Positions 50,997 through 55,269 of a stretch of DNA of 64,000 nt are shown piece by piece (the first letter of the stretch is position 1; each line of letters starts with the position of its first letter). A program made the translations under genes and the position numbers. The stretch lies in contig JAFANH010000088.1 in NCBI GenBank assembly GCA_019232795.1, positions 1 through 64,000 of the forward strand, in the 5' to 3' direction. Source of the DNA: Burkholderiaceae bacterium (GTDB lineage Bacteria; Pseudomonadota; Gammaproteobacteria; Burkholderiales; Burkholderiaceae_D). The notes under the pieces were generated by a model, which saw only the letters and a program-made list of their open reading frames with translations, was not told the origin of the DNA and made no database searches.

Positions 50997-51875
50997 TCAA
51001 TGCGCCAGCGCAATCACGCCGGCCGCAATGCATAGTGCGCCAAGCAGGCGCGGGATACGGTCGCCCTCACCCAGCAAATGGCCACCGATCAGGGCGGCAA
51101 ACAGCATAGACACTTCCCGCGCCGGTGCGACATGGCTCAGCGGCGCCACGCGCAAAGCGTACAACACCATGACGTAGGACAAGGGACTGACCGCCGCAAC
51201 AATCAGCGCATACTTCCATTGCTGCCGCCACAGCGCCGCTGCGGCAGCCCGGTCGCGCAGCACCGACGGCAGCAACAACGGAATGCGCGTGACGTTGCCG
51301 CAATAGTCGACCAGGATAGGCGACAGCAGCAGCATTTTGACGGCATAGCCGTCCAGCACAGTATAGGCGGCAATGAACACCCCGGTCAGCACGCCATAGC
51401 GCATGCCCTTGTGCAGGCGTTCGCGCTGCACCGGGTCGTGCGCCACGCGCCAAAAGCCGGTGCCGCCGGCGATCAGAAACACGCCGCCGGCAACGCCCGC
51501 GATGCCGAGCAAGCCGGTGATGGTTGCCCTTTCACCGAAAAAGGCAATGGCCACCAGCGAAGACAGCAAAGGACCCGTGCCGCGTGCCAGCGGATAGACG
51601 ACCGTAAGGTCAGCCTTGCGGTACCCGCGCAGCAGCACAATGAAGTACAGCACGTGTAGCACGCCGCTTACGGCCACCACGGCCCACATCCAGGCGTTCC
51701 AGCCGCCAACCACGTCCCACCCGACGTAAACGCCGATCGGTGCCCAGACAAGGAGTTGCAGCATGCTGCTGAAGCAAGCAAAACGGGCATCCCCGCCTGC
51801 TTTCTTGGCAGCGATGTTCCAGAGCGAATGGATCAAACCAGCGAAAATAACGAGGGCGAATGCGGAGATTGGCAC
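50997..51875 (-). CDS. EamA/DMT-type transporter
   Basis: 292 aa inner-membrane protein with about ten hydrophobic segments in two repeated halves (first FALVIFAGLIHSLWNIAAKK; second GVLTGVFIAAYTVLDGYAVK). The motif YPLARGTGPLLSSLVAIAFF ends the first half, as in EamA proteins. The substrate cannot be predicted. It starts divergently 83 bp from the first borosin precursor, so the two promoters share that gap. Confidence 0.85.
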   Translation of the reverse strand: MPISAFALVIFAGLIHSLWNIAAKKAGGDARFACFSSMLQLLVWAPIGVYVGWDVVGGWNAWMWAVVAVSGVLHVLYFIVLLRGYRKADLTVVYPLARGTGPLLSSLVAIAFFGERATITGLLGIAGVAGGVFLIAGGTGFWRVAHDPVQRERLHKGMRYGVLTGVFIAAYTVLDGYAVKMLLLSPILVDYCGNVTRIPLLLPSVLRDRAAAAALWRQQWKYALIVAAVSPLSYVMVLYALRVAPLSHVAPAREVSMLFAALIGGHLLGEGDRIPRLLGALCIAAGVIALAH

Positions 51876-51958: not shown

Positions 51959-52183
51959 ATGTCTGCACTGCTGAACTACCTTAACGCTCAAGACAAAAAT
52001 GCTTTAGCGCGCGCAGCGCACTTGGCTGATCCGGTAAAAAGCATGATCAGTTTCGGCTTGACGGTTGATGAGCAGGATGTTTTGCTGTCAGGCGACAAAT
52101 ATCGACTCGCAGATGCAATGAAAATTCCATCGCATGAGCTTTCTTTAGTGGTTTATGTAGCGCCTATACAACCAATAGAATAA
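51959..52183 (+). CDS. Putative split-borosin precursor peptide 1
   Basis: 74 aa, ATG 51959 with AGGGAG upstream. The first about 58 residues form a small helical recognition domain with PVKSM and FGLTVDEQDVLLSGD, the kind of LigA-like leader found in SonA-type borosin precursors. The last 16 residues (HELSLVVYVAPIQPIE) are hydrophobic and would be the core that receives backbone N-methyl groups. It is paralogous to the second peptide (39 of 72 aligned positions identical). A weak promoter candidate is TTGTGG-17 bp-CATTAA (51891-51919). Assignment rests on size, the repeat of the gene and the methyltransferase downstream. Confidence 0.72.
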   Translation: MSALLNYLNAQDKNALARAAHLADPVKSMISFGLTVDEQDVLLSGDKYRLADAMKIPSHELSLVVYVAPIQPIE

Positions 52184-52434
52184 GGGAATGACTGATTGGA
52201 ATTCGGTTTGTCCCCGTGTAGTTGAATTATTGCGTCTGCACATTATTTACGTCTCAACTATGCAGTTCCAACCACCAAGTATGTCAGACGATACCTGACG
52301 CACGGAAGGCATACCTCTCGGAGTAGCTGTGCGTAAACATGCGTAGACGTCGTCGTAAGGTTGCTCTAGTGCGGCCGTCCAAACAACTTAGCCCCCAAAA
52401 TTTTTTGAATCCTTTTATCTAACCGGCGGACCAC

Positions 52435-52653
52435 ATGTCGAAACTGTTGGATTACATTAATCATCTCGATAAAGATGCAAGCGCGCGCGCTGAACACCAA
52501 ACTGCTCCGGTCAAGAGCATGACCAATTTCGGTTTGACGGTCGACGAACAAGATGCCTTGCTGGTTGGTGATCGGCAGCGAATTGCTGGCGCAATCGGCA
52601 TCCTGACCAAAGATCTTCCTATGATGATCTATATAGCGCCTGGGGTGAAATAA
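52435..52653 (+). CDS. Putative split-borosin precursor peptide 2
   Basis: 72 aa, ATG 52435. The leader matches precursor 1 closely (PVKSM, FGLTVDEQDALLVGD), while the tail differs: KDLPMMIYIAPGVK. Only the Leu, Tyr and Ala-Pro positions are kept in the core. A leader more conserved than the core is what RiPP precursor families show. The 251-bp gap before it has no gene and no obvious terminator. The diguanylate cyclase gene starts 16 bp after its stop, so these two are probably cotranscribed. Confidence 0.72.
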   Translation: MSKLLDYINHLDKDASARAEHQTAPVKSMTNFGLTVDEQDALLVGDRQRIAGAIGILTKDLPMMIYIAPGVK

Positions 52654-52669
52654 GCGAACGACAGTCACA

Positions 52670-54454
52670 ATGTGGACTACGCCCACGTGGGTGATTCATG
52701 TTGTGGCGACACTATGTGTTGCCGCAACGCTTGATGGTTTCCCGTTTATTGCTCAGGCGCAGACTGCCCCTGACACACTGCTCAATCGCGTTTATGAAGA
52801 GTTACCTCGCGGATCAGAATCTGCCAAAGTCACGTTCGATCAAATCGCCAAAATAGAGCCGACGCTTTCGCAAGCACAAAGGTTTCGATATCTGAAGCTA
52901 TTGTCGGTTTTCTACGGCCTCCAAGATATGGCCGCAGAAGAGGTAGCGACCAGTCGGAAAGCACTGCAATATGCCGCCAACGAAAACCAACGCGCAGGCT
53001 TACTGTACTTTCTGGTAGATGGCTATTCTCGCTTGGGCGAATACGAAAACGCTTTGCGAGCGATGAACGAAGGTGTTCTGCTGTTGCCAAAGTTGACTGA
53101 ACTTCAACCCAAAGCCGAGATACTACAATCTGCCATAGCGCTATATGAATCACTGCACGCTTATGATGAAGCTGGAGTGTTTGCACAGCGGATGATCGAC
53201 CTACCTGATGGCGATACCAAGTCAGCATGCATGGGGATGGCCGATCAAATTGAAATCACCTACTTGCAGCACGACGGCTCACGTCTACGAGCGTTGCGAC
53301 AGCAAGCGATAAAAATTTGCAATGATCGTGGCTTCAAAATTATCGCGCTCAATATTCAAGCATTGGACACCATTGACCGCCTCCGTTCCAATGGCGGCAC
53401 CAATGCCTTGAAAGAAAGTCTGCTCCTACTGAACGGACTAACCCAAGCCAGTGCACGTTCGGACTACAACACGCAACTGGCCGAAGCTATCGCCAAGTCC
53501 TATCTTTCTTTCCATCAGCCGGCCCTAGCCGAACCGTATGCGAATCACGCATGGCAATGGGCCAAGGAAGGCAACTCCCTTCAACTACAACAGCAGACCA
53601 GCGAAACCATGGCCGCCGTGCTGCGTGCTCAGGGTAAACTGGCGGAGGCGCTCAACTATCTCGACATCAGCCATACCTTATGGGAGAAATTACTGGAAGA
53701 GCGCTCACGTAAAGACCTGGCCTATGAACGCGTCAAGTTCGAACAGCAAGACCAAGCCGACCAAATCAAGCTGCTGACCCAGATCAATCAACTTCTGACG
53801 AGCGAGCGTGACTTGGAGAAGCGCAACAAGCACAGCCTGTGGCTAGTATTGCTGCTGGCGCTTATGCTGCTGGGCGGCGCCTTGGCCTGGCTGGTACAGA
53901 CGCGGCGCCAGCGGAACCAATACCGCACCTCGGCACAGATAGACAGCTTGACCGAGATCAGCAACCGCAGTCACTTCGTCGATGGCGCGTTGGCGACTTT
54001 CAAGGATACGCGCCGCAGTGTAGCAGTGGTGCTATTCGACATGGATCACTTCAAGCAGATCAACGACAATTACAGCCATGCGATCGGCGACTGGACGCTC
54101 AAGGCAGTGAGCGCAACCATCAAAGAATGCCTGCGCGCGCACGACATGTTCGGTCGCCTGGGCGGCGAGGAATTCGCCATTTGCCTGCCGAACACCGAGG
54201 AACGCGAAGCCCTGGCGTTGGCCGAACGCTGCCGCAGCGCCATCGAAGCCATCGATTCCAGTGACAGTGGCTTGCATTTTGACATTACGGCGAGCTTTGG
54301 CGTAGCCGTACGTCCAGCCCTTGGCTCCGCCTGTTTTGAAGATACGCTGGCCGCCGCCGACCATGCACTTTACCGCGCCAAGCGTCTGGGGCGTAACCGA
54401 GTGGTCGCGCATCAGGAAAGTACTTTAGTAACAAATGAGGAACAAGTAGCATGA
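52670..54454 (+). CDS. TPR-sensor diguanylate cyclase (GGDEF)
   Basis: 594 aa. A signal or anchor sequence (about 7-30) is followed by a periplasmic helical region with TPR-like repeats (about 35-345), a coiled coil, one transmembrane segment (about 388-409) and a cytoplasmic GGDEF domain. The active-site motif is GGEEF at 498-502, the metal site lies in FDMDHFKQIND, and an inhibitory RxxD (RAHD, 489-492) stands five residues before it. It should make cyclic di-GMP under feedback control. Its stop overlaps the methyltransferase start (ATGA), which ties it to the borosin genes; no cyclic di-GMP effector is seen nearby. Confidence 0.93.
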   Translation: MWTTPTWVIHVVATLCVAATLDGFPFIAQAQTAPDTLLNRVYEELPRGSESAKVTFDQIAKIEPTLSQAQRFRYLKLLSVFYGLQDMAAEEVATSRKALQYAANENQRAGLLYFLVDGYSRLGEYENALRAMNEGVLLLPKLTELQPKAEILQSAIALYESLHAYDEAGVFAQRMIDLPDGDTKSACMGMADQIEITYLQHDGSRLRALRQQAIKICNDRGFKIIALNIQALDTIDRLRSNGGTNALKESLLLLNGLTQASARSDYNTQLAEAIAKSYLSFHQPALAEPYANHAWQWAKEGNSLQLQQQTSETMAAVLRAQGKLAEALNYLDISHTLWEKLLEERSRKDLAYERVKFEQQDQADQIKLLTQINQLLTSERDLEKRNKHSLWLVLLLALMLLGGALAWLVQTRRQRNQYRTSAQIDSLTEISNRSHFVDGALATFKDTRRSVAVVLFDMDHFKQINDNYSHAIGDWTLKAVSATIKECLRAHDMFGRLGGEEFAICLPNTEEREALALAERCRSAIEAIDSSDSGLHFDITASFGVAVRPALGSACFEDTLAAADHALYRAKRLGRNRVVAHQESTLVTNEEQVA

Positions 54455-55269
54455 ATGTAAGTAGTCCAAGTATGGAAAAGCGCGGGAGCCTGGTATGCGT
54501 AGGCACTGGCATGCGCCTGGGCGGACAAATCACACCTATTGCGCAGAGCTACATTGAAAATTCGGACGTCGTGCTGGCGGCGGTTTCCAATACGTTAGCA
54601 CGCAAATGGCTGCAAGGCTTGGCGCGCGAATATGTCTGCCTGACTCAACATTACGACTTGACCAAAGAAGAAGGCAAAACCCGGCGCGACACTTACCGCG
54701 CCATGACAGCCGATATCATGGGACAGGTGCGAGCCGGTAAAGCCGTATGTGCTGCGTTTTACGGCCACCCCGGCATCTTCGCCTGCGTTGCCCATCTTGC
54801 GATCGAAGCTGCACGCAAGGAAGGCTATGAGGCGCACATGGAGCCCGGTGTTTCGGCGCTCGATTGTCTGGTCGCTGACCTCGGCATCGACCCTGGTGCG
54901 TATGGCCTGCAGTCGATGGAAACGACGCAGTACATGATCCACCAGCGCCCGCTCGACACAAGTAGTCTGCTGGTATTGTGGCAGCCCGGCGTGGCCGGCG
55001 ACCTGAGCCTGAAGCGTTTCGATACCGTGCCGGCGCGTCTGCAAATCCTGGTCGACAAATTGGCACGGCATTATCCCTTAGATCATGAAGTGATCCTGTA
55101 CGAAGCTGCCACTCGTCCGTTCGAAGCAACCCGTATCGACAGAATGGCGTTGCGTGACTTACCTGCGGCAGAGGTCAAGCCTGCCACAACGCTGGTGATC
55201 TCCCCGGCACAGGAGCCTGTGGGCGACGAAGAAACCATAGGCTTGCTCGACGCACTAGCGCTGGCCTAA
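54451..55269 (+). CDS. Borosin-type peptide alpha-N-methyltransferase
   Basis: 272 aa SAM-dependent enzyme of the tetrapyrrole-methylase fold. SLVCVGTGMRLGGQITPIA (about 13-31) is the SAM strand-loop; RRDTYRAM (78-85), FYGHPGIF (103-110) and EPGVSALDCLVADLGIDPG (131-149) match the OphMA/SonM N-methyltransferase group rather than cobalamin enzymes. It would methylate backbone amides of the precursor cores. It has no fused core peptide at its C-terminus (GLLDALALA), so it fits the split type, with the substrate encoded separately. The start at 54451 overlaps the cyclase stop by 4 bp; GAGG lies just upstream. No cobalamin or siroheme genes are nearby. Confidence 0.85.
   Translation: MNVSSPSMEKRGSLVCVGTGMRLGGQITPIAQSYIENSDVVLAAVSNTLARKWLQGLAREYVCLTQHYDLTKEEGKTRRDTYRAMTADIMGQVRAGKAVCAAFYGHPGIFACVAHLAIEAARKEGYEAHMEPGVSALDCLVADLGIDPGAYGLQSMETTQYMIHQRPLDTSSLLVLWQPGVAGDLSLKRFDTVPARLQILVDKLARHYPLDHEVILYEAATRPFEATRIDRMALRDLPAAEVKPATTLVISPAQEPVGDEETIGLLDALALA

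Follow-up and report, generated by a model that had tools for sequence, protein, structure and literature searches.

The 64,000-nucleotide stretch of Burkholderiaceae DNA analyzed here (the window; GenBank assembly GCA_019232795.1, contig JAFANH010000088.1) very probably contains a type IV split borosin operon, in which two precursor peptides, A1 and A2, would have their tails N-methylated by one enzyme to give two products. The assignment draws on sequence and on structural models. The genes are arranged precursor-precursor-sensor-enzyme, all on the forward strand, and the precursor and methyltransferase genes lie in one cluster, as in type IV split borosins. The start of the enzyme gene and the stop of the sensor gene overlap (ATGA). 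A1 has a good ribosome-binding site (AGGGAG) and that of A2 is weaker; a scan for promoters and terminators gave about as many matches as chance expects. The source genome, which belongs to the same family as Undibacterium, is incomplete (86.6 % complete, 107 contigs). A single methyltransferase copy was found in it, and the sequence makes it likely that, as originally predicted, one enzyme makes two products.

Table 1. Features of the operon and its upstream neighbor, in window positions.
Feature	Position	Strand	Length	Remarks
EamA-type transporter, divergent	50997..51875	-		Taken as the operon's upstream boundary
Precursor peptide A1	51959..52183	+	74 aa	Predicted BBD-like leader about 1-60, then hydrophobic tail LSLVVYVAPIQPIE
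A1-A2 gap	52184..52434	none	251 bp	
Precursor peptide A2	52435..52653	+	72 aa	Predicted five-helix leader about 1-54, then disordered hydrophobic tail LPMMIYIAPGVK
TPR-GGDEF membrane protein, putative receptor	52670..54454	+	594 aa	Assigned by Pfam, hydropathy and model
Alpha-N-methyltransferase, SonM relative	54451..55269	+	272 aa	Tetrapyrrole-methylase family

Enzyme and precursors resemble SonM and SonA

The best solved relatives of the methyltransferase in the PDB are SonM chains (E 7.5e-74), with the borosin enzymes of fungi coming next (E 2e-38 to 3e-43). Four SonM residues that have been probed by mutation, Y58, R67, Y71 and Y93 (PMC8429565), correspond to Y68, R78, Y82 and Y104 of the window enzyme. 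All four are present, and none of them varies among the nine rows of an alignment containing the window sequence.

Both peptides had been predicted to be RiPP precursors with a recognition leader, and the evidence for a borosin binding domain (BBD) bears this out. A profile of 29 precursor sequences, the window pair included, matched SonA chains without a gap over positions 1-60 (E 3.8e-11). A direct phmmer search of the PDB with A1 alone returned no match, and neither peptide scored above the cut-off of any NCBIfam or Pfam family. An AlphaFold2 model of A2, calculated on the 29-sequence profile alignment, has five helices (residues 3-13, 15-23, 25-32, 36-44 and 47-54) and a low-confidence tail, with a mean pLDDT of 82.6; SonA likewise consists of a five-helix BBD followed by a core (PMC8429565). 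When this model was searched with Foldseek, ranks 1-30 were all SonA chains (probability 0.98-1.00, rmsd mostly about 1 Å), followed by the dbOphMA/OphMA clasp (ranks 31 and 34) and LigAB-type proteins. No match reached an E-value of 0.001, the best being 0.046, as is expected for so short a protein. As judged from sequence and model, the window shows those traits of type IV split borosins that sequence can address.

SonA is methylated at L63 and I65 (PMC8429565). Ungapped extrapolation of the register past position 60 places these sites on L63 and V65 of A1 and on M63 and I65 of A2, all of them hydrophobic. These residues bear on a different reading, that the BBD proteins act unmodified, for instance by regulating the enzyme as its subunits or by capping another enzyme as LigA does, with the tail being a disordered end. 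The BBD does also have the LigA fold (Pfam LigA for A1, E 0.25, under the family cut-off; 1bou, Foldseek rank 35), and the tails diverge no more than the C-terminus of the methyltransferase. We nonetheless consider this reading very improbable: the enzyme retains the probed catalytic residues, the tail of SonA is a known methylation substrate of SonM (PMC8429565), and hydrophobic residues occupy the SonA-methylated register in both window tails.

Conservation of the precursors among relatives

At E 1e-20, the enzyme was found in 28 genomes out of 392 in the family (counting the own genome; six are distant, at 36-38 % identity), in 10 out of 369 sampled from the class (again counting the own genome), and in 70 out of 295 belonging to another order of that class, probably that of Rheinheimera and Shewanella. 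Two further genomes of the source genus gave no enzyme match at E 1e-20, one of them being only 68 % complete. From a scan of named genomes, the best 80 of at least 548 relatives were kept; those of loci L039-L069 with an enzyme sequence identical to that of a named locus were merged, leaving 101 non-redundant loci, 12 of which had no precursor by profile. A second sample comprised 40 of the 107 matched places in the other order, hand-chosen (20 from family f227 and 20 others), and the profile detected a precursor in 36 of these. Two gene orders recur: precursor-sensor-enzyme, with the precursor upstream (Undibacterium type), and enzyme-precursor-sensor, with the precursor downstream (Rheinheimera, Dyella and Rhodanobacter type).

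Tails in the Rheinheimera/Rhodanobacter group have cores that contain Cys (VVCG, LCCM) and, behind these, long acidic stretches (e.g., L089:7441-7728 and L106:3863-4258), unlike those of the window. A GNAT acetyltransferase-like gene lies near the enzyme in 30 of the 101 loci, many of them Rheinheimera-type (e.g., L100:6788-7327), and might provide a second modification. At nine loci (L039, L041, L045, L047, L048, L070, L072, L077 and L086), a small ORF (128-165 aa) that seems to carry a secretion signal is found downstream of the enzyme; the one tested had no Pfam match.

A1 and A2 are identical at exactly the 39 of 72 ungapped positions originally reported, and these divide into 35 of 60 in the leader and 4 of 12 in the tail. 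The identical leader runs PVKSM and FGLTVDEQD are both there as claimed, and the tails do share little beyond Tyr and Ala-Pro (common positions L61, Y66, A68 and P69). Among 4908 small ORFs searched with phmmer, A1 retrieved A2 at E 7.3e-21 and A2 retrieved A1 at E 5.3e-21, a likeness far above chance. The two are mutually nearest in the precursor tree, with support of 63/0 in what is an unresolved tree of 60 columns. Homologues at E ≤0.0002 were found by phmmer upstream of the enzyme in all 20 loci of the Undibacterium/Solimicrobium group (L039-L058), that of L047 being a 39-aa fragment only.

The direct A1-A2 tandem was absent from the Undibacterium-type loci examined; there, a second precursor copy either sits between the sensor and enzyme genes or comes with its own sensor gene. 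Precursors in tandem do occur in the Rheinheimera/Dyella/Rhodanobacter type (e.g., L112 and L113). The missing parallel in Undibacterium-type loci would suit an A1 that is a redundant or decaying copy, leaving one product only, as would its weaker profile E-value (4.5e-18 versus 6e-21) and its end 487 bp before the sensor gene. We regard such decay as unlikely, because its 74 codons have stayed open at a leader dS of about 2.4 from A2 (saturated; dN 0.30) and because the better ribosome-binding site belongs to A1, both of which point to a long-kept function of the two. The same leader distances argue that A1 and A2 have both been kept for long.

Searches of the A1-A2 gap with tblastn and blastn gave no credible trace of a lost sensor gene: the best of the tblastn matches listed was ten residues long on the minus strand (E 0.037), and the sole blastn match was the window itself. 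Of seven second-precursor loci examined, only L081 bears the scar of a lost sensor (E 1.3e-5). At this locus, from Solimicrobium silvestre (L081:5638-5967), the end of the second precursor ORF is a short leftover of a GGDEF C-terminus, which would fit the deletion of a second sensor gene.

We aligned 33 precursors of the Undibacterium-type group, leaving out the broken second precursor of L070. Mean column identity was 0.525 over the 60 leader columns and 0.191 over the 12 tail columns, and none of 20,000 column shuffles gave a difference as extreme. The per-position comparison of homologues suggested by the original prediction hence bears out a tail less conserved than the leader across these relatives. 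The accompanying claim, that a kept leader and a changing tail mark a RiPP precursor, holds as a pattern and fails as a diagnostic, since the methyltransferase C-terminus diverges equally. Over the last 12 residues of seven near pairs, 54 of 84 positions are identical in the precursor (rest of the protein, 383 of 435) and 56 of 84 in the methyltransferase (rest, 1647 of 1836); for the sensor, six near pairs gave 60 of 72 (rest, 2736 of 3430), so that its C-terminus does not share this divergence. The tail pattern fits a core peptide and is no proof of selection for new products.

Two observations had been named in advance as counting against the precursor interpretation. The first, a tail as conserved as the leader, was absent over the whole set, but two of the seven near pairs keep 11 and 10 of their 12 tail residues. 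The second, a disrupted second ORF, was encountered once: in Undibacterium hunanense (L070:5591-6010) the frame of the second precursor copy is disturbed, and this copy lies between sensor and enzyme, unlike the window's. Among near pairs, nonsynonymous distances were frequently but not uniformly larger in the tail. They were higher in the tail than in the leader for L078/L076 (0.13 versus 0.03) and L079/L080 (0.77 versus 0.11), and not higher for the second copies of L039/L048 (0.00 versus 0.02) or for L041/L048 (0.24 versus 0.30). The tail offers about nine synonymous sites per pair, many of them saturated, so that no ratio was obtainable. The suggestion that a kept Y-x-A-P marks the end of the methylated stretch finds no support, as the motif occurs in two of 110 first-set precursors, both from the window, and in none of 36 in the second set.

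A TPR sensor gene accompanies the precursors

The protein encoded between A2 and the enzyme comprises an N-terminal signal or anchor (residues 9-27), a TPR region (about 31-385), a transmembrane helix (391-409) and a GGDEF domain (422-577). The latter carries GGEEF and RxxD motifs and looks like an intact diguanylate cyclase. The TPR domain is likely periplasmic, a topology predicted by hydropathy only. A model of the sensor part shows a helical TPR superhelix ending in a long helix (mean pLDDT 91.3); its PDB matches were headed by eukaryotic LGN and also included the peptide-pheromone receptors Rap and NprR (Foldseek 8rsv, 5dbk and 4gyo). This likeness to peptide-binding TPR domains is suggestive and is general for the fold.

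In the first set, the 101 non-redundant loci, 92 of 110 precursors had a same-strand member of the sensor cluster starting less than 1.2 kb behind them; in 87 cases the distance was no more than 120 bp. GGEEF was present in 88 of these 92, nearly always near residue 500 and behind a hydrophobic segment near residues 390-410. At L062 and L063, a TPR-hybrid histidine kinase takes the place of the GGDEF protein. The 18 precursor ORFs without a sensor behind them comprise seven second copies between sensor and enzyme (L039, L041, L048, L070, L075, L081 and L086), three extra copies before the enzyme (L089, L110 and L118), four with a GGDEF gene that tblastn detected beneath a longer false ORF (L061, L091, L101 and L147), three no more than 1.6 kb from where a contig ends (L095, L126 and L137), and L085. 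In the second sample, all 40 loci had a TPR sensor gene on the strand of the enzyme, recognized by the sensor profile in 38 and by Pfam TPR in two (L216 and L217). Its output was a GGDEF domain in 35, a histidine kinase in four (L216, L217, L221 and L222), and none in one (L219). At the last of these (L219:7889-11410), enzyme and precursor are followed by three stand-alone TPR proteins that match the sensor profile and lack an output domain. At L203, sensor and GGDEF are encoded in two separate ORFs, reflecting either a real break or a sequencing error.

The pairing has a boundary. A class-wide search yielded nine further loci, with the sensor in three (L061-L063) and not in six (L064-L069), and no ORF above 150 aa matched the sensor profile at E 0.1 at L085 or at the loci with distant methyltransferases (L060 and L064-L069). 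As far as the sequences go, a linked, co-occurring TPR sensor with predicted periplasmic topology is limited to the SonM-like clade. One of the distant loci (L064:6730-8815) has a 70-aa ORF before the methyltransferase, a transporter-like ORF (by eye) behind it and no sensor; it is perhaps an exported borosin type.

We then compared genomes with and without the enzyme. In the own family, the sensor profile matched all 16 genomes that have the enzyme and one of 20 that lack it, that one match being weak and partial; in the other order, it matched 13 of 15 and 0 of 18, respectively. The pooled counts are 29 of 31 and 1 of 38 (Fisher p 6e-16). This value overstates independence, since the genomes share ancestry and those with the enzyme belong for the most part to other genera or families than those without. 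Kinship is thus a partial confounder of the co-occurrence, and the profile was built from linked copies. Both misses (G810 and G835) have TPR kinases at the loci fetched (L221 and L217, respectively), and in G812 the only sensor match is on another contig than the enzyme. The own genome encodes 41 GGDEF domains in 2.95 Mb, which puts chance adjacency at about 1-2 % per gene. The TPR-GGDEF gene beside the precursors is no accident of the window.

Precursor distances correlate with those of the sensor (0.91) and of the enzyme (0.86). Over 86 couplets of precursor and sensor, the partial correlation was 0.64 for the sensor given the enzyme and 0.37 for the enzyme given the sensor; over 74 single-couplet loci, the values were 0.62 and 0.39. 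Precursor-sensor couplets have multiplied beside the locus's one enzyme at L074, L130, L141, L143 and L145, and L114 has two couplets and two enzymes. Sensors of duplicated couplets showed no extra divergence compared with between-locus pairs of equal GGDEF identity: five of six pairs gave an ordinary value, and L145 was lowest, at 1 of 15.

A possible ligand and receptor pair

It is possible, we infer, that the N-methylated peptide is the ligand of the neighboring TPR receptor. The BBD of each precursor would dock on the SonM-like methyltransferase, and the loose hydrophobic tail would enter the active site and receive backbone N-methyl groups stepwise, the likeliest sites being, by the SonA register, the residues at positions 63 and 65 given above. 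The methylated tail would then be trimmed and pass, as a membrane-friendly peptide, to the periplasm. N-methylation generally favors membrane passage. There, the TPR domain of the adjoining membrane protein would bind the peptide, and c-di-GMP would be made. Counting against passage to a periplasmic sensor, inspection by eye showed no signal peptide on the precursors, and the 30 largest neighbor clusters included no recognized exporter.

In 14 of 25 Undibacterium-type loci (e.g., L048:3212-4921), a same-strand gene for an M14 zinc carboxypeptidase stands ahead of the first precursor, with a gap of 89-105 bp in nine of them. It may be a candidate trimming enzyme or a mere neighbor. As the leader peptidase of the window it was rejected: none was found near the window operon or in the own genome, and the carboxypeptidase is present in 15 of 16 methyltransferase-bearing genomes and in 7 of 20 that lack the methyltransferase.

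The TPR-GGDEF protein could equally be imagined as a plain regulator that serves the cluster, or the life-style in which its product helps (e.g., biofilm), and that answers to some other cue, with the borosin being antimicrobial or metal-binding and no ligand, a possibility that we take seriously without holding it probable. Regulators often adjoin natural-product genes. No exporter was recognized among the 30 largest neighbor clusters, and as of 2021 no type IV pathway was described as tied to a final product (PMC8429565). A plain regulator sits less easily with a TPR module that is kept while its output varies (GGDEF, histidine kinase or none), with couplets multiplied beside one enzyme, and with precursor distances that track the sensor over the enzyme. 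Our tentative proposal is that split borosins of the SonM-like clade are signals, not weapons, with the receptor encoded directly behind the precursor, an exchangeable output, and couplets acting as channels. A bacterial borosin product has reportedly been described in a later paper.

Known systems place these proposals in context. The window shares with SonA/SonM of Shewanella oneidensis (PMC8429565; PDB 7ltc) a separate precursor of about 70-75 aa, composed of a five-helix BBD and a loose C-terminal core, and a homologous alpha-N-methyltransferase with identical active-site residues; it has two precursors, whereas SonA/SonM has one. The precursor of a sampled SonA-like locus (L195) equals SonA at 52 of the first 60 residues (by eye) and has a TPR-GGDEF gene right behind it. 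The order at that locus is enzyme-precursor-sensor, in contrast to the window's, and the tails are unlike. Fungal fused borosins (OphMA, dbOphMA) have a homologous methyltransferase and the same clasp/BBD fold, but join enzyme and core in one chain, whereas these are separate chains in the window. The founding fungal borosins are macrocycles (PMC7878506). No cyclizing enzyme was seen in the window operon. The sensor has the TPR superhelix and a similar length in common with the RRNPP receptors Rap and NprR, a likeness of fold only, with no claim to sequence-family membership. Rap and NprR bind unmodified peptides in the cytoplasm of Gram-positives, whereas the TPR domain of the window is predicted to be periplasmic, is joined to GGDEF (to a kinase in relatives), and would bind an N-methylated ligand.

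A "GGDEF-sequence-containing domain" is named among borosin architectures in the legend to Fig. 1 of PMC11395268. Neither the sensor-first pattern nor the ligand-receptor reading appeared in the borosin literature searched, which did not extend to the principal genome-mining studies (Imani 2022; Cho 2022), and the novelty of the receptor reading cannot be certain.

In its biosynthetic part, the window adds a new member to the type IV split borosins, one with two precursors per enzyme. The kept pairing with a TPR protein, together with its exchanged output, suggests a testable function for these peptides, namely as ligands of a c-di-GMP or two-component receptor. If this is true, the window would encode two ligands, one enzyme and one receptor gene, and the SonM-like clade would be engaged in multi-channel peptide signaling.
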